DNA of 64,000 nt from the NCBI RefSeq assembly GCF_021261325.1, contig NZ_JAJSBI010000002.1, forward strand, positions 1 to 64,000, given 5' to 3'. Numbering within the stretch: the stretch's first letter is position 1; every line of letters starts with the position of its first letter. Under the pieces are notes generated by a model. That model searched no databases. It was not told the DNA's origin and was given only the letters and a program-made list of their open reading frames with translations. Shown piece by piece: positions 26,753 to 42,681 of the stretch. This DNA comes from Streptomyces guryensis. GTDB taxonomy: Bacteria; Actinomycetota; Actinomycetes; Streptomycetales; Streptomycetaceae. Made by a program: the position numbers and the translations under genes.

Positions 26753-26765
26753 TGTGCTGCCGTGA

Positions 26766-27047: not shown

Positions 27048-27073
27048 GTGATGCTGCCCTTCAGAGTCTCAGG

Positions 27074-27089: not shown

Positions 27090-27256
27090 TCCCACAACGT
27101 GAAGCGTCTCCGGAGCGGTCCTGTGTCCCGTCCGGGGTGGGCAGTCGGACCGCGGCCTCGGCCCGACTTCCGTCCTTGTTCTCTTCTCAGCGGACTGCCG
27201 TGTTCTCCACAGACTGCCTCGCGCCGTTGTCGGACGCGAGCCGTACTCTGGGGCCC

Positions 27257-30085
27257 ATGCAGACCTCGCCGGACCGGCACGAGTACCCCGCACACTGGGA
27301 AGCCGACGTGGTGCTGCGCGACGGCGGCACCGCGCGCATCCGCCCCATCACCGTTGATGACGCCGAGCGCCTGGTCAGCTTCTACGAGCAGGTTTCGGAC
27401 GAGTCGAAGTACTACCGGTTCTTCGCGCCCTACCCTCGTCTGTCCGCCAAGGACGTCCACCGCTTCACGCACCACGACTTTGTGGACCGGGTGGGACTCG
27501 CGGCCACGGTGGGCGGCGAGTTCATCGCCACCGTACGCTATGACCGCATCGGTGCCGACGGCATGCCCGCGTCAGCTCCGGCCGACGAGGCCGAGGTCGC
27601 CTTCCTCGTCCAGGACGCCCACCAGGGGCGCGGCGTCGCCTCCGCGCTGCTGGAGCACATCGGCGCGGTCGCCCGGGAGCGCGGCATCCGCCGCTTCGCC
27701 GCCGAGGTGCTGCCCGCCAACAACAAGATGATCAAGGTGTTCACGGACGCCGGGTACACACAGAAGCGCAGCTTCGAGGACGGCGTCGTACGCCTGGAGT
27801 TCGACCTCGAACCCACCGACCGCTCACTCGCCGTCCAGCGCGCGCGTGAGCAGCGCGCCGAGGCGCGGTCCGTACGACGGCTGCTCGTGCCCGGCTCCGT
27901 CGCCGTCGTCGGCACCGGCCGCACCCCGGGAGGCGTGGGCCGCAGCATCCTCGACAACATCCGTGACGCCGGCTTCACAGGGTCGCTGTACGCCGTGAAC
28001 AAGGCGCTCCCCGAAGACGTCAAGGAGCTCGACGGCGTCCCCGCCCACCGCTCCGTCCGGGACATCGACAGCCCCGTCGACCTCGCGGTCGTCGCCGTGC
28101 CGGCCGCACACGTCCCCGCGGCCGTCACCGAGTGCGGCGAGCACGGCGTGCAGGGGATCGTCGTCGTCTCCGCCGGGTACGCCGAGAGCGGGCCCGAGGG
28201 CCGCGAGCGCCAGCGCGAACTCGTGCGGCACGCGCGCACGTACGGCATGCGGATCATCGGGCCGAACGCCTTCGGGATCATCAACACGTCCCCCGACGTA
28301 CGGCTGAACGCCTCACTCGCCCCCGAGATGCCCCGCCCCGGCCGGATCGGCCTGTTCGCCCAGTCCGGTGCCATCGGCATCGCGCTGCTGTCCCGGCTGC
28401 AGCGCCGCGGCGGCGGAGTCACCGGCGTCACGGGCGTGTCCACCTTCGTGTCGTCCGGCAACCGCGCGGACGTGTCGGGCAACGACGTCATCCAGTACTG
28501 GTACGACGACCCGGACACCGATGTCGTCCTCATGTACCTGGAGTCCATCGGCAACCCGCGCAAGTTCACCCGTCTCGCGCGGCGGACGGCGGCCGCGAAG
28601 CCGCTGGTCGTGGTCCAGGGTGCCGGTTCCGCCCCGCAGGGGCATGCGGTACGGGCCACACGGTTGCCGCACGCGACGGTGTCCGCGCTGCTCAGGCAGG
28701 CGGGCGTGATCCGGGTGGACACGATCACCGAACTCGTCGACGCGGGCCTGCTGCTCGCCCGGCAGCCGCTGCCGACGGGCCCGCGCGTGGCGATCCTCGG
28801 GAACTCCGAGTCCCTGGGGCTGCTGACCTACGACGCATGCCTCTCCGAGGGGCTCAGGCCGCTCAGACCGCTGGACCTGACCACCGCGGCCTCGGCGGAG
28901 GACTTCCACGCGGCGCTGCTGCGGGCCCTCGGGGACGACTCGTGCGACGCGGTCGTGGTGACCGCCATCCCGGCGATCGGCGAGGGATCCCCTGGAGACG
29001 CCGAGCTGGCGGAGGCGCTGCGATCAGCCGCCGAGTCCGTTCCGGGCAAGCCCGTGCTGGTCGTGCACGTGGAGCTCGGCGGACTCGCGGAGGCGCTGTC
29101 GGCCGCGACGAGCACGGCACCGCAGCAGGACACCACGGCGACCGGCACCCGCCGGCTCCGCCCGTCCCAGCAACTGCCCCCTCCCGTTCGGACGCAGGAA
29201 CCGGCCGCCCCTGCCACCTGCTCCCGCCTCATCCCCGCCTACCCCGCCGCCGAGCGCGCCGTCCGCGCCCTCGGTGAAGCGGTGAAGTACGCGCAATGGC
29301 GGCGCGACAGCGCCGACCCCGGCAAGGTGCCCGAGTACGAGGACATCGACGAGAAGGGAGCCGCCCGGCTCATCGACGGGATGCTCGCCCGCGGGCAGGG
29401 CCTCACCCTCGGCACCGAGGACACCTGCGAGCTGCTCGGGCAGTACGGCATCCCCGTGCGCAGGGCGGTGCCGACCTTCACCCCGGACGACGCCGTCCGG
29501 GCCGCCGGCGCCCTCGGCTACCCGGTCGCCCTCAAGGCCACCGCCCCCCACCTGCGCCACCGCGCCGACCTGGGCGGCGTACGACTGGATCTCGCCGACG
29601 AGGAGCAACTGCGGCGGGCGTACGCCGAGTTGACCGAGCTGTTCGGGAAGCCGGAGGAGCTGCGGCCGGTGGTACAGGGGATGGCACCACGCGGCGTGGA
29701 CACGGTGGTACGGGCCGTCATCGACCCGGCGGCCGGCGCCGTCCTGTCGTTCGGGCTGGCCGGAGCCGCCTCCCAGCTGCTCGGCGACATGGCGCACCGG
29801 CTGGTCCCGGTCACCGACCGGGAGGCGACCTCGCTGGTCCGGGCGATCCGGACGGCACCGCTCCTGTTCGGCTGGCGGGGCTCGACACCGGTCGACACCC
29901 CGGCGCTGGAAGAGCTGCTGCTGAGAGTGTCCAGGCTGGTCGACGACCACCCCGAGGTCGTCGCGGTGACCCTGGAGCCGGTCGTCGTCGCACCCCGCGG
30001 TCTGACCGTCCTCGGCGCCTCCGTCCGCCTCGCGCCACCGCCCGCCCGCGACGACCTCGGCCCGCGCACCCTTCCCGTGTACTGA
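27257..30085 (+). CDS. patA: GNAT/acyl-CoA synthetase-like protein acetyltransferase
   Basis: A 942-residue fusion. Residues 1-185 are a GNAT acetyltransferase ('VQDAHQGRGVASALLEHIG' is the acetyl-CoA loop). Residues 205-700 resemble the CoA-binding and ligase domains of ADP-forming acyl-CoA synthetase ('GRSILDNIRDAGFTGSLYAV', 'FAQSGAIGIALLSRLQRR'). Residues 715-940 are an ATP-grasp-like subunit. The GNAT-first order is that of S. lividans PatA, which acetylates and inactivates acetoacetyl-CoA synthetase; the enterobacterial Pat has GNAT last. The synthetase part is thought to act as a sensor. A Thr/Pro-rich linker around residues 620-655 separates the parts. ATG 27257 is chosen to match the family. 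Confidence 0.88.
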   Translation: MQTSPDRHEYPAHWEADVVLRDGGTARIRPITVDDAERLVSFYEQVSDESKYYRFFAPYPRLSAKDVHRFTHHDFVDRVGLAATVGGEFIATVRYDRIGADGMPASAPADEAEVAFLVQDAHQGRGVASALLEHIGAVARERGIRRFAAEVLPANNKMIKVFTDAGYTQKRSFEDGVVRLEFDLEPTDRSLAVQRAREQRAEARSVRRLLVPGSVAVVGTGRTPGGVGRSILDNIRDAGFTGSLYAVNKALPEDVKELDGVPAHRSVRDIDSPVDLAVVAVPAAHVPAAVTECGEHGVQGIVVVSAGYAESGPEGRERQRELVRHARTYGMRIIGPNAFGIINTSPDVRLNASLAPEMPRPGRIGLFAQSGAIGIALLSRLQRRGGGVTGVTGVSTFVSSGNRADVSGNDVIQYWYDDPDTDVVLMYLESIGNPRKFTRLARRTAAAKPLVVVQGAGSAPQGHAVRATRLPHATVSALLRQAGVIRVDTITELVDAGLLLARQPLPTGPRVAILGNSESLGLLTYDACLSEGLRPLRPLDLTTAASAEDFHAALLRALGDDSCDAVVVTAIPAIGEGSPGDAELAEALRSAAESVPGKPVLVVHVELGGLAEALSAATSTAPQQDTTATGTRRLRPSQQLPPPVRTQEPAAPATCSRLIPAYPAAERAVRALGEAVKYAQWRRDSADPGKVPEYEDIDEKGAARLIDGMLARGQGLTLGTEDTCELLGQYGIPVRRAVPTFTPDDAVRAAGALGYPVALKATAPHLRHRADLGGVRLDLADEEQLRRAYAELTELFGKPEELRPVVQGMAPRGVDTVVRAVIDPAAGAVLSFGLAGAASQLLGDMAHRLVPVTDREATSLVRAIRTAPLLFGWRGSTPVDTPALEELLLRVSRLVDDHPEVVAVTLEPVVVAPRGLTVLGASVRLAPPPARDDLGPRTLPVY

Positions 30086-30149
30086 GACGGGCACGGAGAC
30101 AGCGCTGACCGGTGCCTCGCAGTCAGTGCACCCCCGTAGGATGGACGTC

Positions 30150-30737
30150 ATGGCCAAGACCAGTACGACGACCCAGGGGCTGCGCACGGCGATCGAGCGC
30201 AGTGGCTACTACCCGGCCCTCGTGGCCGAGGCGGTGGAGGCCGCCGTGGGCGGCGAGCCCATCCGGTCGTACCTGGTCCACCAGGAGACCACATTCGACG
30301 CGAACGAGGTGCGGCGGCACGTCACGGTGCTCGTCCTCACCGGCAACCGCTTCATCGTCAGCCACACCGACGAGCAGGCCGCGGACACCACCTCCCCGAC
30401 GCCGTACGCCACGACCTCGACGGAGTCCGTGAAACTCGACCGGATCTCCTCGGTGGTGGTCAGCCGCGTCGTCGCCAACCCGGAGCAGTACCAGCCGGGC
30501 ACCCTGCCCCGCGAGGTCGTCGTCACCATCGGCTGGGGAGCCGTCTCCCGCCTCGACCTCGAGCCCGCGGCCTGCGGCGACCCCAACTGCGAGGCCGACC
30601 ACGGGTACACGGGCAGCTCGACGGCGGACGACCTCAGCCTGCGTGTCAGCGAGGCCGGAGACGGACCGGAGACGGTGCGCCAGGCGCTCGCCTTCGCCCA
30701 GTCGCTCTCCGAGGCGACCGCGGACACCACACGCTGA
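30150..30737 (+). CDS. DUF5998-family protein
   Basis: A 195-residue soluble protein conserved in streptomycetes. It opens with 'GLRTAIERSGYYPALVAEAV' and has a beta-rich middle with 'HVTVLVLTGNRFIVSHTDEQ'. A possible metal-binding cluster 'ACGDPNCEADHGYTG' (residues about 148-162, Cys-Cys-His) follows, then a helical C-terminus. Function is unknown. Its stop overlaps the start of the phosphodiesterase gene (TGATG), and tdk follows, so it leads a three-gene operon. ATG 30150 is used; 30141 in the same frame is possible. Confidence 0.78.
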   Translation: MAKTSTTTQGLRTAIERSGYYPALVAEAVEAAVGGEPIRSYLVHQETTFDANEVRRHVTVLVLTGNRFIVSHTDEQAADTTSPTPYATTSTESVKLDRISSVVVSRVVANPEQYQPGTLPREVVVTIGWGAVSRLDLEPAACGDPNCEADHGYTGSSTADDLSLRVSEAGDGPETVRQALAFAQSLSEATADTTR

Positions 30738-31930
30738 TGTCCCAGTCCGCTCCCTGGGACACCCACCCGGAACCCCTCGCCGTCGACTCCGCTCCGCTGC
30801 CCGAGTACGGCAGCGGCTCCCTCGCCGACCTGCTGCCCACGCTGGCCGCCGGCATGGCCGTACCCGACATGACCGCCGCGATCACCGAGCTGACGCCGGC
30901 CGACCGGAACTGCGTGTTCCTGATCGACGGACTCGGCTGGGAGCAGCTGAAGGCGCATCCGGACGAGGCCCCCTTCATGACCTCGCTCCTCGGCACCTCG
31001 CGCGGTGGCACCGGCCGCCCCCTGACCACGGGCTACCCGGCGACCACCGCGACATCCCTCGCCTCCGTCGGCACCGGCCTGCCGCCCGGCGCGCACGGCC
31101 TGCCCGGCTACACCGTGCGCAACCCGGAGACCGGCGAGCTGATGAACCAGCTGCGCTGGCAGCCGTGGACATCGCCGCGCGCCTGGCAGCCGTATCCCAC
31201 GGTGTTCCAGCTGGCCGAACAGGCCGGGGTGCACGCGGCCCAGGTGACATCGCCCACCTTCGAGAACACCCCGCTGACCAAGGTCGCACTCAGTGGCGGA
31301 AGGTTCCACGGGCGGCTGTCCGGCGAGGACCGCATGGACCTCGCGGCCGGGCAACTGGCCGCCGGCGACCGCTCCTTGGTCTACACGTACTACGCCGAAC
31401 TCGACGGCGCCGGCCACCGCTACGGCGTCGAGTCGGACACCTGGCGCGGCCAGCTCATGCATGTCGACCGCCTCGTGCAGCGCCTCGCCGAGCAACTCCC
31501 GCCGCGCACCGCGCTGTACGTCACCGCCGACCACGGCATGGTCGACATCCCCTTCGACGAGCAGCACCGCATCGACTTCGACGAGGACTGGGAACTGCGC
31601 GCCGGCGTCGCCCTGCTGGGCGGCGAGGGCCGCGCCCGGCACGTGTACGCGGTGCCGGGCGCCGAGAACGACGTGCTGACCTGCTGGCGCGAGGTGCTCG
31701 GCGAGCAGTTCTGGGTGGCCTCGCGGGACGAGGCGATCGCGGCGGGCTGGTTCGGACCGCACATCGACGAGCGGGTGTACGCGCGCATCGGCGATGTCGT
31801 CGCGGCCGCCCGCGACGACGTCCTGATCATCGCCTCCGAGCGGGAGCCCAAGGAGTCGGCGATGGTCGGCAACCACGGCTCGATGACCCCTGCCGAACAG
31901 CTGGTCCCCCTGCTCGAAGTACGCTCCTGA
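30737..31930 (+). CDS. Nucleotide pyrophosphatase/phosphodiesterase-like hydrolase
   Basis: A 397-residue member of the alkaline-phosphatase superfamily, NPP type. It has the nucleophile region 'LTTGYPATTATSLASVGTG' (about residues 97-115), metal sites 'FLIDGLGWEQL' (Asp) and 'YVTADHGMVDIP' (Asp-His), and 'YYAELDGAGHRYG'. The protein should hydrolyse a phosphodiester or pyrophosphate bond in a nucleotide or nucleotide-like substrate using two metals. No signal peptide is seen, so it is probably cytoplasmic. It is coupled to DUF5998 upstream and to tdk 40 bases downstream, suggesting a nucleotide-salvage theme. Confidence 0.87.
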   Translation: MSQSAPWDTHPEPLAVDSAPLPEYGSGSLADLLPTLAAGMAVPDMTAAITELTPADRNCVFLIDGLGWEQLKAHPDEAPFMTSLLGTSRGGTGRPLTTGYPATTATSLASVGTGLPPGAHGLPGYTVRNPETGELMNQLRWQPWTSPRAWQPYPTVFQLAEQAGVHAAQVTSPTFENTPLTKVALSGGRFHGRLSGEDRMDLAAGQLAAGDRSLVYTYYAELDGAGHRYGVESDTWRGQLMHVDRLVQRLAEQLPPRTALYVTADHGMVDIPFDEQHRIDFDEDWELRAGVALLGGEGRARHVYAVPGAENDVLTCWREVLGEQFWVASRDEAIAAGWFGPHIDERVYARIGDVVAAARDDVLIIASEREPKESAMVGNHGSMTPAEQLVPLLEVRS

Positions 31931-31970
31931 CGCTCCCCGATCCTCTCCACCGAAAGGTGCTCAACTCCCC

Positions 31971-32147
31971 ATGCCCGAGCTGGTGTTCTTCTCCGGAACC
32001 ATGGACTGCGGGAAGTCGACCTACTTGCTTGGGTATCCGCCATCAGCCGGCCATGCAGTGGGTGATGCGATGTCGGCTGGTGGTGAAGTTGTCTGTGCCG
32101 ACAACGCCCCCTCTGTTCGTTTGGTCCGAAAGGTTCCTCTGGCCTGA
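31971..32147 (+). pseudogene. tdk: 5' fragment of native thymidine kinase gene, extended into the island
   Basis: ATG 31971 opens 'MPELVFFSGTMDCGKST', the exact start of a type II thymidine kinase up to the P-loop. At 32021 the sequence leaves tdk and continues in frame through 42 island-derived codons ('YLLGYPPSAGHAVGD...') to TGA 32145-32147. That TGA overlaps the ATG of the island tdk (TGATG). The rest of the native gene is at 41261-41861. Removing 32021-41260 and one copy of GAC rejoins the frame perfectly as '...CGKSTLALQIEHNRSARG'. The 58-codon product cannot be a kinase but may serve as a leader that feeds ribosomes to the new tdk. Confidence 0.88.
32025..32042 (+). repeat. Left terminal inverted repeat of the island
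   Basis: TTGCTTGGGTATCCGCCA, 4 bases inside the left boundary. It matches the reverse complement of 41240-41257 at 16 of 18 positions. Confidence 0.8.
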
Positions 32148-32791
32148 TGTCCGAATTGGTGTTCTTCTCGGGGACGATGGACTGCGGGAAGTCAACTTTG
32201 GCGCTGCAGATGGGGCACAACCGGTCGGCGCGGGGCCTGCAGGGTGTGATCTTCACGCGGGATGACCGCGCGGGGGAGGGGAAGCTCTCTTCGCGGCTCG
32301 GTCTGGTGACGGAGGCGGTCGAGGCGGCGCCGGGCATGGATTTGCATGGCTATCTGGTGGACCAGATGTCGAGGGGCGGCAAGGTCGACTATGTGATCGT
32401 GGATGAGGCGCAGTTCCTCGCTCCGGAACAGATCGACCAGCTGGCACGGATCGTGGACGACTTGGGCCTGGACGTCTTCGCCTTTGGCATCACGACCGAC
32501 TTCCGTACGAAGCTCTTCCCGGGCTCGCAGCGGCTGATTGAGCTGGCGGACCGGATCGAGACCCTCCAGGTCCAGGCGATGTGCTGGTGCGGGGCGCGTG
32601 CTACGCACAATGCCCGAACGGTGGGCGGCGAGATGGTGGTGGAGGGCGAGCAGGTTGTGGTCGGTGATGTGAACCGGCCAGCCGAGGCGGTCGGCTATGA
32701 GGTGCTGTGCCGGCGCCACCATCGTCGCCGTATGACGAGCGTTTCCGCGCACGCGTCCGTCATCTCTCCGGATGTCCTGCCGGTCACCTGA
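32147..32791 (+). CDS. tdk: Thymidine kinase carried by the island
   Basis: A 214-residue type II thymidine kinase that phosphorylates thymidine to dTMP for salvage. It has the intact P-loop GTMDCGKST (residues 9-17), 'DEAQFLAP' (catalytic/Walker B region), the lasso region after 'FGITTDFRTKLFPGSQ', and a zinc site with Cys in 'AMCWCGARATHN' and 'EVLCRRHH'. The protein is nearly the same as the remnant of the native enzyme downstream, but the DNA differs at many third positions (more G/T-ending codons). Its ATG overlaps the stop of the interrupted native frame, so it should be translated from the native operon message. Confidence 0.93.
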   Translation: MSELVFFSGTMDCGKSTLALQMGHNRSARGLQGVIFTRDDRAGEGKLSSRLGLVTEAVEAAPGMDLHGYLVDQMSRGGKVDYVIVDEAQFLAPEQIDQLARIVDDLGLDVFAFGITTDFRTKLFPGSQRLIELADRIETLQVQAMCWCGARATHNARTVGGEMVVEGEQVVVGDVNRPAEAVGYEVLCRRHHRRRMTSVSAHASVISPDVLPVT

Positions 32792-33093
32792 CCGCCCGCC
32801 CGCCGGTGCGGTCGTCGGCGGTGTATGAGGAATCCTGCGGTGGCAGCTGGAAGACGGACACGCAGTGGCTCAGCCGCACACACCAGGAGGGGTTCAGCCA
32901 CTGGGGCCAGAAGTCGCTGATGAGCTGCTGGCCTCCCGTCCCCAGCTCCCGGTGAACGGCTCTGACCAGCGACGATGCAACCAAATGACAAGTGTATTTT
33001 TTGCTGGCCAGTTGAGCAGGGGTGGATGGCAGTGCCGAGTTCGGCCGGGGCTTGGGGTGGCGTGGCTGCTGTGCAGCGGGCGTGGCCCGGCGG
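32792..33093. other. Island gap without a supported gene
   Basis: Between the tdk stop and the end of the minus-strand cassette. On the minus strand (about 32840-32990) a frame reads 'LVRAVHRELGTGGQQLISDFWPQW', which is aromatic-rich and protein-like, but it has no plausible start or recognised family. It is probably decayed coding sequence. The stretch is slightly less GC-rich near 32980-33010. Confidence 0.35.
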
Positions 33094-33750
33094 TCAGCGC
33101 TTGTCCGCTGGAGCCCAGTGGTCCGCGGCCAGATGTGCGGGCGTGAACTCCGGCTCCTTGCCATCTGGATGGAAGGTGCGGTAGGTGGTCTCGGCCGTCG
33201 TCTGCAGGGTCCAGGCGGGCTCGGCGTGGCTGCCGCCGTACGACACCTCGGCCGTGAGGCGCCACGTCAGCAACCGTCGGTCCTCGGTGTACGGCGAGAG
33301 CACCACCCGCCGGATCTCCCCGGCGGGCACTGTCAGCGGCAGAGCGAACCCCGGGTTGACCTGGCGCCCCGTCGCGTCGAGGGCGGTGCGCACGACCGGG
33401 GGCGTGACGTCGAGCAGCACCTCCTGGTCCGGCGTGAGCATCGGCCGGTAGTTCTCCTGGCTTCGGCGCCGGGCGTCGGCCAGATCCTCGGCGAAGGCGA
33501 CCGCGGGTCCCGGCAGCGCGGAGAGCACGACTCCATCGGGCTTGAAGTCCTCGCGGGAGATCACCTCGGCGCGCAGCGAGCGCAGCACGACATCGACCGT
33601 GCCGACGGCGTTGAGGTCGACGTACGCGTTGTAACCGGAGCAGGGGGTGTCCACGGGTTCGGGGCCGACGTCGGTACCGGGCATCCGCCGTACGCTGATG
33701 TGGGCCAGGCCCTGCACGCGCGCGGCGAACCGGACGATGTCCTCGGGCAT
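33094..33750 (-). CDS. Unknown island protein B of a paralogous pair
   Basis: A 218-residue soluble protein that I cannot assign. It starts at ATG 33750 (TGATG overlap with the gene upstream), with 'MPEDIVRFAARVQGLAHISV'. It looks beta-rich: several alternating hydrophobic strands, 'VDVVLRSLRAEVISREDF', and 'RRLLTWRLTAEVSYGG' followed by 'WTLQTTAETTYRTF'. This last part aligns by eye with the end of protein A (33750-34505), suggesting an ancient duplication. It has no signal peptide or membrane segment. The two genes oppose all other island genes and probably form a separate transcription unit. Confidence 0.65.
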   Translation of the reverse strand: MPEDIVRFAARVQGLAHISVRRMPGTDVGPEPVDTPCSGYNAYVDLNAVGTVDVVLRSLRAEVISREDFKPDGVVLSALPGPAVAFAEDLADARRRSQENYRPMLTPDQEVLLDVTPPVVRTALDATGRQVNPGFALPLTVPAGEIRRVVLSPYTEDRRLLTWRLTAEVSYGGSHAEPAWTLQTTAETTYRTFHPDGKEPEFTPAHLAADHWAPADKR

Positions 33751-34505
33751 CAGGCAGTCCTCCAATGCAGGCTCCGCGGCGGGCGGGCCATCGTGCGGAA
33801 GGGGTGGCCCGCCAAGTCGATCACGGCGGTGCCCTGGCGGTCCTCGCTGACCCAGTCCAGCTCCAACGTCCAGACCACGTACCACCGTTCGGTCTGCACC
33901 AGCAGCTCGAAGACCTCCGGGTCGTCCGGGCTCACCTTGTACGAGAAGGGGTGCCCGTCGGCCTCGCGTGACTCCAGTCGAGGCGGGTCCTCGTCGAGCA
34001 GGACGGTGTAGCGGCGGGGCGGGACAATCCCGGCGTGCGGGTTGAACACTCCGCGGGGAGTGTGCCGTTCGAGGACGACGGGGCGCAGCGCGGAGAGCAC
34101 GACGGTCCTGCCCGAGAGGGCGGTGACAGTCAGCCGCAGGATGAACCCGCTGGCAGGCACCATGCGTTCGGGTTCGTTGCCTTGCGCGGCTACCTGGAAG
34201 AAGTTGGCTTGATCCAGCTTCACATGGCACGCGAAGGGGGGCTCCGCTTCGGTGAGCCGAGGGTTCGGTTCGGGGGGATCCGGGTCGCGTTCCGGGGAAC
34301 GGCGCCGGAAGACCTCGACGAGCTTCTCCACCAGAACGCCCGTGATCACAGCGGTGAGCGCGGGCGCCAGCCATGACGGTGCCTTGTCCGATGCCCACAG
34401 CAGCACTCCGCACAGTCCCGCGACCGCGGCGGTCCCCACGGTAGTGCGCAAGGTGTCGCGTGCCCGCATCATGGCCCCCGTCGGCGGGTGAATCACTGTG
34501 GCCAC
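33750..34505 (-). CDS. Unknown island membrane protein A of a paralogous pair
   Basis: A 251-residue protein of unknown function. Residues 18-38 and 43-62 are hydrophobic and could form a helical hairpin in the membrane. A Pro/Glu/Arg-rich linker (65-90) leads to a beta-rich domain (95-245) with 'GFILRLTVTALSGRTVVLSA', 'RYTVLLDEDPP' and 'WYVVWTLELDWVSEDRQG'. The beta domain resembles protein B encoded next, so one is membrane-anchored and one soluble. The start is ATG 34505; the in-frame ATGs 12 and 13 codons later are alternatives. The arrangement suggests a two-part complex at the membrane, which is inference. Confidence 0.62.
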   Translation of the reverse strand: MATVIHPPTGAMMRARDTLRTTVGTAAVAGLCGVLLWASDKAPSWLAPALTAVITGVLVEKLVEVFRRRSPERDPDPPEPNPRLTEAEPPFACHVKLDQANFFQVAAQGNEPERMVPASGFILRLTVTALSGRTVVLSALRPVVLERHTPRGVFNPHAGIVPPRRYTVLLDEDPPRLESREADGHPFSYKVSPDDPEVFELLVQTERWYVVWTLELDWVSEDRQGTAVIDLAGHPFRTMARPPRSLHWRTA

Positions 34506-34894
34506 TCAACTGTCCACCTGGAACGGCAAGATGAGCAAGTGACGGGCGCCCCGGAGGTTGGACGTCAGTCCTGTTCGAGGGTGATGGCGGCCTCGTACGT
34601 CCTGCAGGGGTGGTCTGCTCGGCGGCCTCGATGGTGTACTCGCCAGCGAGGCCACCGCGGCCCTCGACGGGCAGGGCGAATCAGCTGCTGTAATCGGTGG
34701 TGACGCGGGCTCCGTCCAGTGTGTCGCCTCTCTGGCAGGCCGTGCGCAGGCCGAAGCCATTGAGCAAGTTATGGACAGCTGTGCTGGCCAGCCGGGCGGT
34801 CCCTTGATGGCTCCACTTCGCCTGTACCAGCCAGATCTCGGCGGTCACGGGGGAGACCAGCACGGCACCGACACGTGGTCGCCAGCTCCGTCGA
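34506..34894. other. Island gap with possible nuclease remnant
   Basis: No intact gene. On the minus strand about 34681-34870 a frame ending at 34681 reads 'AEIWLVQAKWSHQGTARLAS' and 'LLNGFGL', which resembles the E-x-K region of restriction-like or AIPR-like nucleases. It has no start and is out of frame with its neighbours. Taken as debris, with low confidence. Confidence 0.3.
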
Positions 34895-35488
34895 CTACGG
34901 CTTCCGCCGCCTCCACTGACGTGCAGTCCGCGACCAGCTGCGCTGCCTTCGAAGCCAACGCCCGGGAGAAGAGGGCCTGGCCCGGCGATGGCTTGGAGCG
35001 AAGGGCGTTGTGCGGGCGGAGGTTGGGGAGGACGATTTGCGCAAACTGGCCATGGCTTGTGGTGCGTTGCCGGTCCGCAGCTGGGAGGCATCCTCGGTAA
35101 AGGTGGTGCCGTGTAAGTGCTGCACCGCCTTGACGGCCCAGTGATCCTTGATCGGCTTTGTGAGATGGGTCGTTGCGGCCTGCCCGGCGGTCAGGCTGGT
35201 GACGGCGTAGACGGTCTTGACGGTGGTCTTTCCGCTCTTGCGGCAGGTGCGTCGGCGCTTGACCTGGATGACCCGATGGGTACCGGGGAAGAGCAGGTTG
35301 TTCACGGCGGTGACCTTGATCCGCCGGGTCTCGCTACGGCCTTGCGGAGGGAAGTCCTTCCAGGGAGGCGACTTGAGCTGGACACGCAGCTTCGTCCGGC
35401 TCCCCTTCACGATCACGATGTAGTGGGCGTCGCGGCTCGGCAGGTGCTCGGCGTGTTCGGTCTGGGTGTGCAGGGCGTCGCTGGGCAC
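34895..35488 (-). pseudogene. Decayed ISAs1-family transposase
   Basis: The minus-strand frame carries ISAs1-type transposase segments in the right order: '[20 protein letters not shown]', '[20 protein letters not shown]', '[19 protein letters not shown]' and '[20 protein letters not shown]'. The first half of the family protein, including its first catalytic Asp, is missing, and after 'AMASL' the reading turns to basic noise, showing a frameshift or breakpoint. No intact ends are seen. It shows the island was visited by another element; it does not match the island's own terminal repeats. Confidence 0.7.
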
Positions 35489-35715
35489 GGGGAGTAGAGA
35501 ACTCCGTGATCACGGAAGCATTGCCCGCTTCCCTACTCGCACCCGTCAACCCGAGAGAACGTCACTTACCGCCCCGGGGAGGCGCTTTGCCGGTGCAATG
35601 ATCCCGGGTCCGACAAGCCCAGGCCGTCAACTTGATCGCGCATTTGCCCGACCGTTACCCCTTCATGGGCGGCATGCCTGATGGGCTGTCGTAGATGTGA
35701 CACACGGGGGTCAGG

Positions 35716-36447
35716 ATGGCAATCGAGCTGCCGGAGGAAGTGGTGTCGTTCCTCCAGTTCATCGGGGTGAACTGGCCGAACGTCAATGAGGACAAGGTCC
35801 GTGAATTCGCCGCGCATGTGCGGGAGTTCGCGCAGAACGTGGACAACACGCACCAGGACTCCACCGCGACGATCAAACGTCTTGGCGCGGTGTACCAGGG
35901 GGCGTCGTACGAGGCACTGCTCGCGAAGTGGGCGCAGCTGTCCAACAGCCACATGAACGAGCTGATCGAGGCCTGCCACACCGTGGCCACCGCCCTGGAT
36001 GTCGCGGCCGATGTGATCGTGGCCATGAAGGGCGAGGCGATCGCCGAACTGGTGGTGCTTGCCGCCACGTTCGTTGCGGACCAGGCGGCGGCGGTGGCGA
36101 CCCTGGGCCTCGCGGAGGCGGCCGAGGCGCTGGTCGTGGAGGCGGCAGAGAAGCTGATGGATTTCCTTGAGCAGCAGCTGGAGCAGTGCATCATCGGGCA
36201 GGTGATCGAGGCCGCCATGAACCCGTTGGTGGACGTGGTGGGGAAGGCCGTGACGGGGCTGGTGTTCCATACCACCGAATCCGCGCTCGGGGTGTCCGGC
36301 GGCGGGAGTACCGGGTTGGGCGAAGGCTTCTCGGTCGACCCCGAGCAGATGCACGCGCACGCGGAGCTGATGCGCGGCCATGCCCGGACGGTGGCCTCTC
36401 ATGCGGAGACGTTCCGGACCAAGCTCGCGACGGTGAGCTTCGAATGA
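35716..36447 (+). CDS. WXG100-like export partner of the Rhs toxin
   Basis: A 243-residue helical protein of the ESX/WXG superfamily. The first 110 residues form a helical hairpin like WXG100 proteins, with W-rich turns 'IGVNWPNVNEDKVREFA' and 'ALLAKWAQLSNSHMNEL'. The middle (105-185) is Ala-rich and hydrophobic. The tail has 'GFSVDPEQMHAHAELMRGHA', another helical pair typical of ESX substrates. Such genes precede DUF6531/Rhs toxin genes in actinobacteria and are thought to guide them to the type VII secretion system. ATGA overlap with the toxin gene supports co-production. Confidence 0.8.
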   Translation: MAIELPEEVVSFLQFIGVNWPNVNEDKVREFAAHVREFAQNVDNTHQDSTATIKRLGAVYQGASYEALLAKWAQLSNSHMNELIEACHTVATALDVAADVIVAMKGEAIAELVVLAATFVADQAAAVATLGLAEAAEALVVEAAEKLMDFLEQQLEQCIIGQVIEAAMNPLVDVVGKAVTGLVFHTTESALGVSGGGSTGLGEGFSVDPEQMHAHAELMRGHARTVASHAETFRTKLATVSFE

Positions 36448-39400
36448 CCAACCGGATCGTCAAGGCCCTGGAGGACGGGGCCCAGAAAATGGGCAAGGCC
36501 ATCGGTGAGGACGCCGGCAAGGCCGTCAAGGACTTCTATCACGACACCGGTACACGGCTGAAGAAGGTCGCTCAGAACCACGTCGAGAACGACGCCAAGC
36601 ACGCCGGCGAAATGGAGAAGATCCTCAAGGGCGGCGGCAAGGAAGACGTGCCCGGTCCGCACGTCGGCACCAGTGGCACAGGGCGGGCGTCGGGCGCGGG
36701 GCAGGGCCGCGAGCAGGCGGAGAACCGGGCCGGCGAGGGCGTCGAGGAAAACGCCGGCTCCGGGGCCCGGCGCAGCGCCCGGGACGCGCTCGACGACAAC
36801 CCGAAGCACGAGGGGCAGTCGGCCAAGGAGAAGGTCTGCGACGGCGACCCGATCGACATGGCCACCGGCCGCATGCTCATGTCCCAGACGGATATCGCGC
36901 TGCCCGGCACGCTGCCGCTGGTGTTCACCCGGACCTTCGAGTCCTCCTTCCGATCCGGCGGCTGGTTCGGCCCCGCCTGGTGCTCCACCCTCGACCAGCG
37001 CCTGCTGATCGACGACCAGGGCGTGATCTTCGTACGCGAGGACCGCTCCCTGCTCTCCTACCGGCACCCAGCACCGGGGGCAGCGACGCTGCCGGTGGAG
37101 GGAGAGCGCTGGCCGCTGGAGGCGACCGAAGACGGCTACACCGTCACCGACCCGGCCACCGGCCGCATCTGGTGCTTCACCCACCACGACGGGTCGCTGG
37201 CGCTCCTCGACCAGCTCGACGACCGCAACGGCAACTGGATCGCCTTCGACCACGACCCGGCCACCGGCGCACCCCTCGCGATCCGGCACTGCGGTGGCTA
37301 CCAGCTGAACATCACCACGGACCAGGGCCGCATCACCGGCCTGTGCCTTGCGGGAGCCGCCGAGGACGGCGGCGACCGACTCATCAAGACGTACGCATAC
37401 AACAGCGCAGGTCAGCTCATCGAGGTCGCCGACCCCGAGGGGCGTGCCATGCGCTTCGGTCTCGATGCCCTGGGCCGTATCACGTCGTGGACGGACAGCA
37501 ACGGCAGCAGCTACACCTACGCCTACGACGAACGGCACCGCTGCGTCCACCAGTCAGGAATCGCAGGGCACCTCAGCGCCACGTTCACCTACGACGCGAT
37601 CGATCCGGAAACCGGTCATCGCGTCACCGCGATCACCGACTCTCAAGGCAACACCACGCGCTACCTGATCAACGACGCGTCGCAAGTCGTCGCCGAGATC
37701 AGCCCTCTGGGCGCGGTGACCCGTTTCGAGCGTGACCGCTACAACCGCCTGCTGTCATGCACCGACCCGCTCGGCCACACGACGACCTTCACATATGACG
37801 AGGAAGGACGGCTCGTCACCGTCCACCGAGCCGACGGACGCAGCAGCCACATCGACTACAACGCTCTGGGCCTGCCCGTCCGGATCACCGGCTTCGACGG
37901 CCGAGCCATACGGCAGACCTACGACAGCCGCGGCAACCGCACCTCCCTGGCTTCCTCGACCGGCGCCACGACCACGTACGCGTACACACCGCAGGGCCAC
38001 GTGTCGGCGATGACGCATCCGGACGGCAGTACCTCGCACGTACGGTGCAACGCAGCCGGGATGCCCCTGGAGATCACGGATCCCCTGGGGAAAGCGACCC
38101 GTTACGAACGCGATGCCTTCGGCCGCCCGATCACGCTGACCAGCGCGCTGGGTGCGGCGACTCAGCTGCGCTGGACCGTCGAAGGCAAGCTCAAGACCCG
38201 GATCTTCCCGGACGGTCACGCCGAATGCTGGACCTACGACGGCGAGGGCAATCAGCGCACGCACACCGATGTCCTCGGCCAGGTGACCCGCTTCGAGTAC
38301 ACCCACTTCGACCGTCTCGCCGCGCGCACCGGCCCGGACGGCGTACGGCACGAGTTCGCCTACGACACCCGACTCCGGCTCACCCAGGTCACCAACCCGC
38401 TGGGAGAGACCTGGAGATACTCCTACGACGCCGACGGACGCCTGGCTCTCGAAGAGGACTTCGACGGGCGCGTGATGCGCTATGGCCACGACGCCGCGGG
38501 ACGCCTGGTCTCCCGCACCACCCCCATGGGGCAGACCGTCGGTTTCACACGCGATGCGCTCGGGCGCATCGTCCAGAAGGACGTCGACGGCGCGCTCACC
38601 ACGTACACGTACGACACGACGGATCAACTGGCCGCGGCAGTGAGTCCCGATGTCCGGCTGGAGCTACAGCGCGACCAGCACGGCCGCGTGCTCACCGAGA
38701 CGGTCAACGGCCGCGTCATGTCGTTCGGCTACGACGCGATCGGCCGGAGGGTCTCTCGTACCACCCCCACCGGTGTGCGTAGTTCATGGACCTATGACCA
38801 CTTCGGCAACCGCGTGCAGCTGGTCACTGGTGGACGAACCGTGACGTTCACGCGCGACGCCGTCGGACGCGAGACGAGCCGCACCTTCGAGGGCGGCCTG
38901 ACCATGGACTTCGCCTACGACCCCCTCGGCCGACTCGTCGGCCACACCAGCGCGGCGCCGGACACCGGCATCATCCAGTCACGCGCGTACCGGTACCGCG
39001 CCGACGGCCATCTCACAGGCGTCGACGATCAGTTGCACGGCCCCTCACACTTCACCCTGGACGCAGTCGGCCGCGTCACCGCCGTCAACGCCCACAACTG
39101 GAGCGAGACCTACGCCTACGACGCCGCGGGCAACCAGACGGCCGCCACCTGGCCCGACGTCCTCGCCCCTGAAGGCCAGGGCGAGCGCACCTACACCGGG
39201 ACCCGCATCGACCGCGCCGGCGGCCTGCGTTACGAGTACGACGCAGCCGGCCGCACCGTGCTGCGCCAGAAGACTCGCCTTTCCCGCAAACCCGACATCT
39301 GGCGCTACCACTACAACGCCGAGGACCAGCTCACGTCCGTCACCACCCCCGACGGCACGACCTGGCGCTACCTCTACGACCCGCTCGGCCGACGCACGGC

Positions 39401-40298
39401 CAAGCAACGCCTCGACGCCGGCGCAGCCGTCGTGGAACAGGTCGATTTCGCTTGGGACGGGAGCACCCTCTGCGAGGAAACCCAGAGCACGACCGGCGTC
39501 ACCCTCACCTGGGACCACGACGGCCGACGCCCCGTCGCTCAGTACGAACGCAAGCCGCTGTCGACGACCGAAGTCGACGAGCGCTTCTTCGCCATCGTCA
39601 CCGACGTCGTCGGCACCCCCACCGAGCTGATCGACGAACATGGACGCCTCGCGGCCCGCACCCGCACGACGCTGTGGGGAACCACTGCCTGGGACCACGG
39701 CGCCACGGCTCATACCCCACTACGCTTCCCTGGGCAGTACCACGACGCCGAGACCGGGCTCCACTACAACCATCACCGCATCTACGACCCCGTCACCGCT
39801 CGGTACCTCACGCCCGACCCCCTGGGCCTGGCGCCTGCACCCAACCCGGCGTCATACGTGCACAATCCGCACGTCTGGAGCGACCCACTCGGCCTCGCTC
39901 CCAAGGAATGCGACCCTGATAATGTCCCGGGCACCAAGCGCACCTATGAGGAAGCCAAAGCCAAGGCACTCAGGGACGCAGGTATTCCAGAGGGTGCGGT
40001 CCCCCTGGAGAGCAACGATTGGGTAGAGGCCACGACGCCGGAGTGGCAAGGCGGCAAGCAGCTCATGGATGAGAACCACCAACCGATCTACTACACGGAG
40101 GAGATATACGAACACCCCAACGGCGAGAACCTCATCGTGTTCCAGGACCACCACTTCGGTCATCAGGAACCCGGAACCCCTGGCCATCAACCCGCACACG
40201 TCCACGTGCGACCGATAGACGACACCCGCAATGGGCAAGTCCCCGGAGCCGAAGAGCACTATTACTATGACCGTTCCACTCATCCCAGCCGACCCTGA
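36444..40298 (+). CDS. Rhs/YD-repeat polymorphic toxin with His-rich C-terminal tip
   Basis: A 1284-residue toxin. Residues 1-130 are polar and helical. DUF6531 starts near 132 ('CDGDPIDMATGRMLMSQTDI'). Dozens of YD repeats (about 300-1080; for example 'TYAYDERHR', 'FAYDPLGRLVGH') should fold into a shell. The Rhs core ends with 'RYLTPDPLGLAPAPNP' near residue 1120 and a second 'DPLGL' near 1150. The last roughly 133 residues are the toxin: 'WVEATTPEWQGGKQLMDENH', then 'FQDHHFGHQEPGTPGHQPAH' with 'VHVRP' and 'EEHYYYD'. The cluster of His residues suggests a metal-dependent nuclease, possibly a predicted Ntox/HNH type; the exact family is uncertain. Immunity genes follow, the first overlapping by 32 bases. 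Confidence 0.87.
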   Translation: MTNRIVKALEDGAQKMGKAIGEDAGKAVKDFYHDTGTRLKKVAQNHVENDAKHAGEMEKILKGGGKEDVPGPHVGTSGTGRASGAGQGREQAENRAGEGVEENAGSGARRSARDALDDNPKHEGQSAKEKVCDGDPIDMATGRMLMSQTDIALPGTLPLVFTRTFESSFRSGGWFGPAWCSTLDQRLLIDDQGVIFVREDRSLLSYRHPAPGAATLPVEGERWPLEATEDGYTVTDPATGRIWCFTHHDGSLALLDQLDDRNGNWIAFDHDPATGAPLAIRHCGGYQLNITTDQGRITGLCLAGAAEDGGDRLIKTYAYNSAGQLIEVADPEGRAMRFGLDALGRITSWTDSNGSSYTYAYDERHRCVHQSGIAGHLSATFTYDAIDPETGHRVTAITDSQGNTTRYLINDASQVVAEISPLGAVTRFERDRYNRLLSCTDPLGHTTTFTYDEEGRLVTVHRADGRSSHIDYNALGLPVRITGFDGRAIRQTYDSRGNRTSLASSTGATTTYAYTPQGHVSAMTHPDGSTSHVRCNAAGMPLEITDPLGKATRYERDAFGRPITLTSALGAATQLRWTVEGKLKTRIFPDGHAECWTYDGEGNQRTHTDVLGQVTRFEYTHFDRLAARTGPDGVRHEFAYDTRLRLTQVTNPLGETWRYSYDADGRLALEEDFDGRVMRYGHDAAGRLVSRTTPMGQTVGFTRDALGRIVQKDVDGALTTYTYDTTDQLAAAVSPDVRLELQRDQHGRVLTETVNGRVMSFGYDAIGRRVSRTTPTGVRSSWTYDHFGNRVQLVTGGRTVTFTRDAVGRETSRTFEGGLTMDFAYDPLGRLVGHTSAAPDTGIIQSRAYRYRADGHLTGVDDQLHGPSHFTLDAVGRVTAVNAHNWSETYAYDAAGNQTAATWPDVLAPEGQGERTYTGTRIDRAGGLRYEYDAAGRTVLRQKTRLSRKPDIWRYHYNAEDQLTSVTTPDGTTWRYLYDPLGRRTAKQRLDAGAAVVEQVDFAWDGSTLCEETQSTTGVTLTWDHDGRRPVAQYERKPLSTTEVDERFFAIVTDVVGTPTELIDEHGRLAARTRTTLWGTTAWDHGATAHTPLRFPGQYHDAETGLHYNHHRIYDPVTARYLTPDPLGLAPAPNPASYVHNPHVWSDPLGLAPKECDPDNVPGTKRTYEEAKAKALRDAGIPEGAVPLESNDWVEATTPEWQGGKQLMDENHQPIYYTEEIYEHPNGENLIVFQDHHFGHQEPGTPGHQPAHVHVRPIDDTRNGQVPGAEEHYYYDRSTHPSRP

Positions 40299-40764
40299 GC
40301 CGCTGCGCCGGCTTTACGGCGAATTTCCCGGCCTGGACGAATTCAGGCTCCGCTCGATCAACATCGACCGGGCGGGCCCCTCGCTCACGCTCCGTATCGA
40401 CCTCCTGGATTTCCCCGGCCACCCGCCGGAGGAGTGGGTGGCAAACCAGTGCGACGTGGTGCAGTGCCACATCCACTTCCTGGCGGTTGATCAACTCGCG
40501 CTGGAGGAGTGGAATCCGCCGACGAGGGCACGGCTCACCACCACACCCACGGCGGAACCTCGGATGATTGATGTGTCCGTCCGTGGCCCTGGGGTTTCGC
40601 TCGATTTCCAGAGCCACGAGCAAGTGACCATCCGTCACATCAGCGGCTTCCGCATGGCACCCGATGGTTCGGACGAGGTCCCCCACCAGTTCCTCAGCAA
40701 GCTCGACGCACACCGCTTCTCGACGATCCCCCGCACCTACGAAAAGACCTTCTATGCGCGCTGA
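40267..40764 (+). CDS. Imm50-like immunity protein, copy 1
   Basis: A 165-residue soluble protein beginning inside the last 32 bases of the toxin gene (ATG 40267), the usual position of the cognate immunity gene. The pattern 'LRRLYGEFPGLDEFRLRSIN', 'GPSLTLRIDLLDFPGHPPEE' and 'VVQCHIHFLAVDQLALEEW' matches my memory of the Imm50 family. It should bind and block the C-terminal toxin domain in the producing cell. A second, shorter paralogue follows, overlapping by 11 bases. Confidence 0.72.
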   Translation: MTVPLIPADPEPLRRLYGEFPGLDEFRLRSINIDRAGPSLTLRIDLLDFPGHPPEEWVANQCDVVQCHIHFLAVDQLALEEWNPPTRARLTTTPTAEPRMIDVSVRGPGVSLDFQSHEQVTIRHISGFRMAPDGSDEVPHQFLSKLDAHRFSTIPRTYEKTFYAR

Positions 40765-41161
40765 CAGCTGGGTTCAACTGCTCACGGGGCCCGCACTCAT
40801 CGCGAGCCTCTACGATTCCCCGCCAGAGCTGAGCGCATGCGCCCTCTTCTACGTCCATCTCGACGAGCGCGCAGATTCCGTGACACTGGGATTCGATACC
40901 TCGCACCTCCCGTCAAACCCGCGCACGGAATGGCAGGAGAAACCCTTCAATGCCTTCGAGTTTCATTTGCAGTTCGAATCCGTTTCAGGACTTCGCGTCG
41001 CGGGATGGGCTGCACCAGCGCAGAAGAACATTCTGATGTCTGCACGCGAGGCCGGAGGCGTAAAATTTTCGGCGACCGCGCCTGGATCACTGCTCGAATT
41101 CGCGGCGGACCGGGTCCGAGTCGCGCGGACGCGTACCTATCTCGCCTCGGCAGCACCCTGA
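40754..41161 (+). CDS. Imm50-like immunity protein, copy 2
   Basis: A 135-residue protein with the same layout as the gene before it: 'LLTGPALIASLYDSPPELSA', then 'DSVTLGFDTSHLPSNPRTEW' and 'FEFHLQFESVSGLRVAGW'. It is shorter at the C-terminus. Two different immunity proteins behind one toxin suggest that one protects against an earlier or foreign toxin variant. It is the last intact island gene; the right terminal repeat lies 79 bases after its stop. GC content and codon bias are lower than in the flanking core genes. Confidence 0.65.
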   Translation: MRADSWVQLLTGPALIASLYDSPPELSACALFYVHLDERADSVTLGFDTSHLPSNPRTEWQEKPFNAFEFHLQFESVSGLRVAGWAAPAQKNILMSAREAGGVKFSATAPGSLLEFAADRVRVARTRTYLASAAP

Positions 41162-41239
41162 TGGGGAGGCCAATCCTTCTTCCTGTAGCCGCGTCGGGAT
41201 CAAGACCCTCGATCTCATGTCGGCGGCGCTCTCCGGAAA

Positions 41240-41257
41240 TGGTGGATTCCCAAGCAA
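41240..41257 (-). repeat. Right terminal inverted repeat of the island
   Basis: Read on the minus strand it is TTGCTTGGGAATCCACCA. It differs from the left end only at two positions and ends 3 bases inside the right boundary; the left copy is 4 bases inside. Confidence 0.8.
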
Positions 41258-41260
41258 AAG

Positions 41261-41861
41261 GACGCTGGCTCTGCAGATCGAGCACAACCGTTCGGCACGT
41301 GGCCTGGCAGGGATGATCTTCACCCGTGACGACCGCGCGGGCGAGGGCAAGCTCTCCTCCCGTCTCGGCCTGGTCACCAACGCGGTGGAGGTCGAGGACG
41401 GGCAGGACCTGTACGCCTACGTCGTCGACCACCTCTCGCAGGGCGGCCGCGCGGACTACGTCATCGCGGACGAGGCGCAGTTCCTGGCGCCGGAGCAGAT
41501 AGACCAACTCGCGCGCGTGGTCGACGACCTGGGCCTCGACGTCTATGCCTTCGGCATCACGACCGACTTCCGCACCAAGCTGTTCCCCGGCTCCCAGCGC
41601 CTTGTCGAGCTGGCCGACCGCGTCGAGGTCCTCCAGGTGGAGGCCCTGTGCTGGTGCGGCGCGCGCGCCACACACAACGCCCGGACGGTGGGCGGCGCCA
41701 TGGTCGTCGAGGGCGCGCAGGTCGTCGTCGGCGACGTCAACCAGTCGGAGGCCGTCGGCTACGAGGTCCTCTGCCGCCGCCACCACCGCCGCCGTATGAC
41801 GGCGACGACATCCGGCTCGGCGACGCTTTCCCCGGACGTGCTGCCGGTCTCGCAGGCCTAG
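41261..41861 (+). pseudogene. tdk: 3' remainder of the native thymidine kinase gene
   Basis: From GACG 41261 the frame reads 'TLALQIEHNRSARGLAGMIF' and continues to the normal tdk end, including the zinc-site cysteines and 'DEAQFLAP'. The first 16 codons, with the P-loop glycines and lysine, are on the far side of the island. An open frame from ATG 41217 in the island runs into it, giving 'GNGGFPSKRTLALQ' in place of GTMDCGKST, so any product could not bind ATP normally. The frame is otherwise undamaged, which suggests either a recent insertion or some retained use. Confidence 0.85.
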
Positions 41862-41877
41862 AAGGACCGCCCTGCGC

Positions 41878-42681
41878 TCAGCGCGGGCTCTCGATCAGGC
41901 AGAAGCGGGCGCCCTCGGGGTCGGCGACCGTGGCCACGCGCCCGTGGGCGCTGTCCCTCGGGGACTTGAGGACATGACCGCCCAGGTCCACGAGGCGGAC
42001 GACGGCTTCGTCCGTGTCGGCGACTTCGAAGTACGTGATCCAGTGCGGGCCCCGGTCGCGCGGCAGGGCGGTGCCCACGCCGTGGATACCGGCGACCGGA
42101 CGGCCCCCGACGTGCAGACTCACGTAGTCGAAGTCGGCGGAGACGACCGGCTCCTCCTCGTAGCCGAAGACCGTCTCGTAGAACTTGGCCACGCTCGCCG
42201 ACTCGAAGGTCAGCAGCTCGTTCCAGGCCGGGGTGCCGGGCACGCCCGTGAGAGCAGTGCCGAGGTACTCGGCCGCCTGCCAGATGCCGAAGACGGCGCC
42301 GGAGGGGTCCGAGCCGATCGCGAGACGCCCGGCCTCGGCGGCGTCCAGGGGGCCCACCCCGATCGTGCCGCCGCACAGCCGCACCGTCTCGGCCGTCAGG
42401 TCCACGTCGTCCGAGGCGAGGTAGGGCGTCCAGGCGATCGGCAGATGGCGGTCCGGCGGCAGCTGGCCGATGCCGGCCACCTCGTAGCCGTCGAGCAGGG
42501 CCCGTGCGTACGGGCCGAGCTGCTGGGGGCCCGGCTGGAACTCCCAGCCGAACAGCGAACCGTAGAAGTCCTGGGTCGCGGCCAGTCCGTGCACCATCAG
42601 GCTCACCCAGCAGGGCGTGCCGGGCGCGTGCTGGGCGTGCGCCTCGCCGTTCGGGCCGGCCGACCGCCGTGCCTCCGTCAT
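41878..42681 (-). CDS. Two-domain VOC (glyoxalase-like) protein
   Basis: A 267-residue protein made of two VOC modules (about residues 22-130 and 145-262). Each has the beta-alpha-beta-beta-beta order: 'CWVSLMVHGLAATQDFYGSL' opens the first and 'WNELLTFESASVAKFYETVF' the second. The family includes lyases, dioxygenases and antibiotic-binding proteins, usually with a metal; the usual His/Glu metal ligands are not all obvious here, so an enzymatic role is open. ATG 42681 is used. It is convergent with the tdk remnant (16-base gap) and divergent from the sulfurtransferase gene. Confidence 0.82.
   Translation of the reverse strand: MTEARRSAGPNGEAHAQHAPGTPCWVSLMVHGLAATQDFYGSLFGWEFQPGPQQLGPYARALLDGYEVAGIGQLPPDRHLPIAWTPYLASDDVDLTAETVRLCGGTIGVGPLDAAEAGRLAIGSDPSGAVFGIWQAAEYLGTALTGVPGTPAWNELLTFESASVAKFYETVFGYEEEPVVSADFDYVSLHVGGRPVAGIHGVGTALPRDRGPHWITYFEVADTDEAVVRLVDLGGHVLKSPRDSAHGRVATVADPEGARFCLIESPR

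Follow-up and report, generated by a model that had tools for sequence, protein, structure and literature searches.

Several described systems resemble the element reported here, a 9,241-bp insert that splits the thymidine kinase gene tdk in a 64,000-bp stretch of Streptomyces guryensis DNA (contig NZ_JAJSBI010000002.1, positions 1 to 64,000, hereafter the window) and that very probably belongs to a family of serine-recombinase islands. Serine integrases use a palindromic attP, in which two arms surround a 2-bp core. In the staphylococcal cassettes (SCCmec and others, inserted by CcrA/CcrB at rlmH), the site of the cassette restores the end of the target gene, and we know of no replacement gene in them. 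Nor, to our knowledge, do phages of the phiC31/Bxb1 type carry one. The ssrA-specific genomic islands of Dehalococcoides have a CcrB-like serine recombinase adjoining one attachment end; they accumulate in tandem at ssrA, bounded by repeats of its end, and some seem to be without an integration module, according to passages of their description (PMC3146451). Among the actinobacterial integrative and conjugative elements (AICEs), 19 of 144 use serine recombinases and some sit in protein-encoding genes; one reportedly disrupts the gene it occupies, and the passages concerned mention no replacement (PMC3218068). Neither tdk nor thymidine occurs in the main text of this survey (PMC3218068).

As far as these passages go, stacking by serine recombinases at one gene (PMC3146451) and serine-recombinase elements in protein genes (PMC3218068) are already known. 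The tdk islands share with the staphylococcal cassettes the large serine recombinases, the fixed site in a conserved gene, the stacking and the variable cargo. With the ssrA islands, as described in those passages, they share a serine recombinase at the end, tandem stacking at one conserved gene and copies without an integration module. They differ in that an ssrA island is bounded by ssrA or its 20-bp direct repeat, whereas here a protein gene is cut in its P-loop, a complete second gene is brought in and truncated genes of about 600 bp are left. Also, the target's own end is not restored as in those two types: all seven left ends found in this study cut tdk, and a separate complete tdk follows. 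In the open PMC literature, searched by title or abstract start, tdk was not described as an attachment site, and no element targeting tdk with a repair copy as cargo was found there, in agreement with an earlier note on this DNA, made from the letters alone. Judged against the open PMC papers searched, what is new is a tdk-cutting family that brings a complete replacement, with a probably coupled leader, a recoded core and a record of truncated genes.

In the window, native tdk starts at 31971 (MPELVFFSGTMDCGKST) and is interrupted in codon 17, in the P-loop (K15 S16 T17), directly after the AC of the Thr17 codon. The insert occupies 32021-41261, between a left AC (32019-32020) and a right AC (41262-41263), where native tdk resumes to end with the stop codon at 41859-41861. 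Joining the flanks at AC by script gave an uninterrupted thymidine kinase of 215 aa, which aligns without gaps to the intact tdk of genome G097 at 88.8% identity (G numbers denote surveyed genomes). The earlier note had proposed that native tdk is cut inside its P-loop codons, that its halves rejoin in frame without the insert and that a complete tdk stands beside the left end; all of this was confirmed, the last point by matches to PF00265 and to an NCBIfam equivalog. The features at the two junctions are the following.

31971..32020, plus strand: 5' piece of native tdk, comprising codons 1-16 plus the first two bases (AC) of codon 17; it rejoins in frame with 41264-41861.
32019..32020, plus strand: left core dinucleotide AC, the presumed crossover position; the sole bases common to both junctions in hosts with an AGC serine codon, and the point at which 7 left and 18 right arms were aligned.
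32021..32043, plus strand: left arm (L), presumably one half of attP; 18 of its 23 positions match the right arm.
31971..32147, plus strand: leader open reading frame (ORF) of 58 aa, running from the native tdk start through the left end; its TGA stop overlaps the cargo ATG (TGATG).
32147..32791, plus strand: complete second tdk of 214 aa with the core recoded to TCA ACT TTG; PF00265, E 1.3e-24; NCBIfam thymidine kinase equivalog, 351.7 bits (cut-off 252).
41239..41261, minus strand: right arm (R), the other presumed attP half, from arm comparisons and shuffles.
41262..41263, plus strand: right core dinucleotide AC, from the junction alignment.
41262..41861, plus strand: 3' piece of native tdk, codon 17 to stop; PF00265, E 1.2e-18, with the frame taken from 41217; it groups with resident-type copies, not with cargo.

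We hold it very probable, on sequence comparisons, that this insert is one of a family of islands that uses a large serine recombinase to integrate at the AC of codon 17 (Thr17) and carries a complete tdk taking over from the broken one. The recombinase would insert the island at this AC, the two inverted arms would be the halves of an imperfect palindromic attP of about 48 bp (arm-AC-arm), and the conserved P-loop DNA of tdk would serve as attB. Some relatives have the recombinase gene at the right end, and at the left end the second tdk comes first.

Related genomes show the same ends at tdk. We surveyed 392 Streptomyces genomes, in which left ends were sought by the arm pattern with up to 2 mismatches. 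Nine of the 17 matches flank tdk (two each in the window genome, G175 and G302, one each in G191, G257 and G012), one flanks a recombinase gene (G302) and seven lie elsewhere; a reversed-pattern control gave 9 matches, and background is therefore accounted for. With an extra left end found in G239, seven are known among the 392 genomes, and more diverged ends may be missed by such a pattern. Without exception, these seven show native codons 1-16, AC, the left arm and a complete tdk, in that order. A tdk protein search gave a match in 378 genomes; 358 have a single match at E<=1e-20 (counted without individual inspection of each), and 20 of the 392 have at least two. When 19 of these 20, all but the window's genome, were searched more closely, every one proved to have a single full-length tdk.

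Junctions of the right arm with codon 17 were sought in stretches from all 20 multi-tdk genomes and from G239, G086, G022 and G025. With up to 3 substitutions, 26 right junctions were found in 16 of the 20 multi-tdk genomes, and 23 with up to 2: four each in G257 and G209, three in G046, two each in G012 and G321, and one each in the window, G199, G083, G377, G310, G167, G175, G302, G126, G178 and G097. No right junction was seen in the stretches from G239, G086, G022 and G025. The seven left junctions and the 26 right junctions all lie at the AC of codon 17. A one-off rearrangement is rejected by the six further genomes with left ends and the 25 further right junctions.

Two copies call for separate mention. 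In G239 (C218:48264-66000), the left end and second tdk are followed by ketosynthase-type genes; the protein search gave one tdk match only in this genome, and the native 3' piece was not found there. In G012 (C1:2483001-2629951), the left and right ends are 147 kb apart, with a relaxase gene (PF03432) near the right end. The genes in the middle of this stretch, named by their N-termini, are presumably core chromosome; a single 147-kb island was rejected for this reason, and a rearrangement between the two ends is likely.

The sequence of the ends argues for an attachment site. The left end TTGCTTGGGTATCCGCCAT (32025-32043) matches its partner at 41239-41257 in 17 of 19 positions, and in the window shuffled 100 times the arm pattern with up to 3 mismatches was expected 0.02 times. 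Counted from the core, the window arms agree at 18 of 23 positions, while 20,000 random arm pairs from the window gave a mean of 6.6 and a best value of 16. Agreement of L with R within a genome, again out of 23, is 18 in G175, 15 in G302 and 14 in both G012 and G257. When 7 left arms and 18 right arms (those tabulated of the 26 right junctions) were aligned on AC, they yielded one common consensus, near YNNYTTGCTTGGGNATCCRCCA. In hosts with a TCG serine codon, GAC is common to both junctions; in the AGC hosts (G012, G257) it is AC only, 2 bp. The GAC repeat is therefore partly a coincidence of the TCG serine codon of the window's host. Of the terminal repeats and 3-bp target duplication suggested by the earlier note, the inverted ends stand, and their reading as transposon repeats with a 3-bp duplication most likely does not, only AC being common in AGC hosts.

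The inverted ends and the GAC of the window could also be explained by a transposon bounded by terminal inverted repeats, which a DDE transposase preferring the tdk P-loop would insert with a short target duplication, and an ISAs1 transposase remnant does lie within the insert. However, that remnant is partial and internal and is the only transposase found, the enzyme at the right end is a serine recombinase, 26 junctions fall at one place, and the shared bases are GAC or just AC, depending on the host. A transposon is thus barely credible, and we rejected it. Most probably, the inverted ends are the arms that flank the 2-bp core of a serine-recombinase attachment site; we read them as attachment-site halves because, in three genomes, the recombinase clade of the islands begins some 45 bp away from the junction.

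This recombinase was found by a PF07508 search of six island genomes followed by tblastn. It stands at the right end of the G257 and G012 islands, starting about 45 bp inside the tdk junction, and G310 is similar, with only tdk and the recombinase above its junction and no left end. The G257 protein has Resolvase, Recombinase and Zn_ribbon domains. Its clade (70-98% identity to the G257 protein) is present in five of the 392 genomes, namely G257, G012, G310, G175 and G302 (frameshifted), all of which hold a tdk island; the next matches reach at most 43% identity. The start about 45 bp from the tdk junction was seen in three of the five (G257, G012, G310). In the window genome, the best match shows 33% identity and lies at a distance of about 97 kb; since this genome is without the recombinase of its relatives' clade, the window copy is probably a stranded remnant. 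In G175 (C7:193906-195959, intact) and G302 (C141:119596-121651, frameshifted), the recombinase and an R-type arm have a common non-tdk flank of about 300 bp, and the whole 2.05-kb recombinase segment, 91% identical, is inverted between the two islands.

In 374 genomes of the class (133 genera, with some Streptomyces genomes included), the only match to the recombinase at E<=1e-80 is 36% identical and comes from Streptomyces. A large protein collection gave 12 clusters at 75-98% and then a drop to 45%, and every organism-named cluster of the 12 is from Streptomyces (among 7997 candidates scored). Elsewhere, the best identities among the matches listed are 32.7% for phage records, 30.2% for plasmids and 24% for viral contigs. 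The nearest solved structure is 9iu2 ('Integrase', 500 aa, E 2.5e-36), which we take to be Bxb1. Integrases of phiC31/Bxb1-type phages have the same domain order as the tdk-island recombinase, and these phages likewise have palindromic attP arms around a 2-bp core and int beside attP; the best phage integrase among the matches listed is 32.7% identical.

These likenesses raise the question of whether the members of the family are remnants of prophages that carried a serine integrase, and not islands of a conjugative or mobilizable kind. The top relatives listed among phage records, at 32.7%, are integrases of Mycobacterium phages; yet all 1142 matching phage records stay below 60% identity, the one related viral contig is at 24%, and the G175 island carries conjugation genes, with coupling-protein domains of type IV secretion (TrwB/TraG-D_C), a TraC/TraG-type ATPase and Replic_Relax. 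A prophage origin is therefore very unlikely. One TraG/TraC-like gene was found in G302, and no conjugation family in the window copy by Pfam and NCBIfam scans. Because one relative (G175) carries conjugation genes, spread of the islands between cells by conjugation seems likely.

The ancestry of the two tdk genes was examined on a tree of 67 tdk sequences from which the first 15 codons had been removed. The intact tdk of G097 and G110 form a group (100/98) with the remnants found in the window, G302, G175 and G310, away from the cargo tdk carried by the islands of the window, G302 and G175; the remnant in the window clusters with G097 (99/86) and with that of G302 (99/87). The cargo tdk in the window clusters with native tdk from three other species (100/90), the G302 and G191 cargo tdk with the intact G022 tdk (100/99), and the G175 cargo with the G086 tdk (100/99). 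Judged by these groupings, host remnant and cargo tdk are of different ancestry, that is, a replacement and not a duplication. No single clade of cargo tdk genes emerged: the tree requires six changes for the seven replacements, so their 3' parts would have been exchanged or would come from several hosts. These results bear on the proposal that the truncated copies arose by tandem duplication and homologous recombination at tdk instead of integration. Many tandem tdk-like pieces, mostly 84-95% alike, do occur in one related genome group, but 26 of them begin at a single breakpoint behind a common arm, with unrelated cargo between them, and host and cargo genes differ in ancestry; duplication is highly improbable.

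In six of the seven left ends, a leader frame is open from the native start through the left end and finishes with TGATG on the cargo ATG, the leaders being 43, 46, 57 and 58 aa long; the G191 stop falls 20 bases earlier. From the Thr17 codon to the cargo ATG there are 80, 89, 122 or 125 bases, all equal modulo 3. The leader is likely a device for translational coupling of the cargo tdk to the start of the broken gene, and the native promoter and start codon would then drive the cargo tdk through it. Its reading as a conserved peptide was unsupported. One could accept the recombinase and site as described and suppose that tdk serves the island's own nucleotide supply, the replacement of the host gene being a by-product. 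The cargo tdk is whole, has a ribosome-binding-like GAAAGG of its own and could work without the host start. Nevertheless, it lies directly behind the left end in all seven cases, in the frame of the leader, and exactly one full-length tdk is found in each of the 19 multi-tdk genomes searched closely, which makes this supposition unlikely.

The replacements also differ from native genes at the core. Of the 392 genomes, 17 contain a match to a P-loop pattern in which Leu18 must be encoded by TTG. The seven replacements behind left ends read TCA-ACT-TTG (five) or AGT-ACT-TTG (two), and neither form occurs in any other match among the 392 genomes; TCG- or AGC-ACT-TTG occurs in five genomes (G022, G025, G086, G209, G167), and ACC or ACG precedes TTG in five genomes. 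In the window cargo tdk, third-position GC is 0.90 over codons 1-30 and the A/T-ending core codons stand out, whereas in the other six the whole of the first 30 codons is GC-poorer (third positions 0.57-0.73). The change from the usual [G/C]-AC-N-CTG to [A/T]-AC-T-TTG, with the protein unchanged, would make the cargo tdk a poor target, and the recoded core may possibly resist attack by the island's own recombinase.

Elsewhere, the left end is missing, and a native-type 5' piece is fused to a replacement 3' part to give one intact tdk. The clearest switch is in G022 and falls at AC: nucleotides 1-48 of its tdk differ at no more than one position from any of the nine intact genes compared and at 6 from the G191 cargo, and from nucleotide 51 it is 95.9% identical to the G191 cargo, placing the switch between bases 48 and 52. 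By these comparisons, the G022 gene is a clean chimera, the sole clean case. The first 48 bases of the G086 tdk have 6-7 mismatches to the nine genes and 9 to the G175 cargo, with which the remainder of the gene shares 88.6% identity. No cargo tdk exceeds 88.3% identity to the genes of G209, G167 and G025. The serine codon before ACTTTG is TCG or AGC in all five fused genes (found with the pattern requiring TTG), not the TCA/AGT of the cargo. No leftover tdk 5' piece was found inside the mapped stacks (tblastn, E<=1e-3). Homologous deletion is a less likely source of the fused genes.

A fused tdk could be hit again, and islands would then stack below a working tdk, one truncated 3' end being left per island. 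Several truncated pieces do lie below one intact tdk, most of them in G046, G257 and G209, a tandem accumulation at one site as in arrays of serine-recombinase cassettes. The order of layers was compared by alignment, among the alignments listed. The G209 layer directly below the intact tdk (4714-14982) corresponds to G046 26366-36634 (97.05%), and the next (15173-17439) follows in G046 at 36641-38907 (97.35%). In G321, the latter lies beneath another layer (93.4% to G209), and in G199 it stands at the top (93.6% to G321, with the alignment starting from codon 17). Layers thus recur in one order across species, for which the simplest history would be successive entry of islands at the top. A bolder extension is a self-renewing landing site, in which the tdk copy, translationally hitched to the start of the broken gene and synonymously recoded, evades the island's own recombinase and a later site-specific loss of the left end brings back a native left half and re-arms the site, so that tdk would be a perpetual docking port writing a stratigraphic record; we regard this as possible but rather doubtful.

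Several observations weigh against the integration scheme or parts of it. The recombinase clade is present in five genomes and right junctions in 16, so most layers would have lost the recombinase or moved in trans. In G175 and G302, the recombinase adjoins an R-type arm whose far side is not tdk. The junctions of G310, G126 and G178 appear only when 3 substitutions are allowed, and four intact P-loops then match as well; these three junctions were accepted by eye, and matches with 4 substitutions were left uncounted. Right junctions are absent from four of the 20 multi-tdk genomes (G108, G110, G385, G191), where the extra pieces are decayed. The L/R pairs of G302, G012 and G257 (14-15 of 23) fall below the best random pair (16); the L/R pair alone is within chance in these three genomes, and it is therefore the consensus common to all arms that carries the argument. 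For the leader, frame +1 is likewise free of stops in all seven cases, and third positions are the most variable in just two of six pairs. As to recoding, G007, G342, G071 and G134, in which no left end is known, have TCA or AGT, then ACC/ACG and TTG, and at least four of the 26 right junctions carry ACTTTGG. Full immunity through the recoded core is weakened by these truncated ends and by the four genomes with similar codons.

The remaining features of the window insert are cargo.

33094..33750, minus strand: 218-aa ORF without a match in Pfam, PADLOC or, above cut-off, NCBIfam.
33750..34505, minus strand: adjoining ORF of 251 aa, no family above the cut-off in the same three collections.
34895..35488, minus strand: ISAs1-type transposase remnant, read as a passenger; NF033564, E 2.4e-18, 66.4 bits against a cut-off of 70, covering profile positions 144-309 of 314.
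35716..36447, plus strand: WXG100-like protein, of the type VII secretion substrate type; PF25547, E 1.1e-12; PF06013, E 1.4e-11.
36444..40298, plus strand: RHS/YD-repeat polymorphic toxin with a C-terminal HNH/EndoVII nuclease domain (Tox-HNH-EHHH); PF05593, PF20148 and, with E 3.2e-13, PF15657, the domain scan taking the frame from 36447.
40267..40764, plus strand: Imm50 immunity protein; PF15594, E 3.9e-17; the ATG at 40267 was picked from the sequence and the frame scanned from 40258.
40754..41161, plus strand: second Imm50 immunity protein; PF15594, E 2.9e-14.

An Rfam scan of 31900-42000 gave no match, and no tRNA was found in the window. Cargo differs between the islands, and the toxin-immunity module of the window is one among several. 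RHS-type genes are present in the window, G257, G083 and G046, and in G321 by alignment to the window and G257; the toxin ends are HNH-EHHH in the window and G257 and a DNA/RNA non-specific endonuclease in G046. G257 also has a protein with a type VII secretion system (T7SS) signal and a glutamine deamidase domain. The layer common to G209 and G046, scanned in G209, has ATP-grasp, PALP and arginine-deiminase-like domains. This biosynthetic-looking layer of about 10 kb (G209 C68, G046 C214) is 97% identical between species whose upstream tdk region is 92% alike. The G239 island has a ketosynthase and a ferritin-like protein, and the G175 island a type I restriction system and T7SS genes besides its conjugation genes.

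Islands usually choose tRNA ends or expendable sites, thereby sparing the host. The tdk family hits highly conserved codons of a metabolic gene and compensates with a spare gene, which would be another route to a target that is stable across species. The pile of truncated tdk ends would provide a readable order of past gene gains (toxin-immunity modules, a biosynthetic-looking cluster) that can be compared between species. Also, the natural attB of the recombinase clade is predicted to lie within a conserved gene, and thymidine kinase is selectable both for and against.

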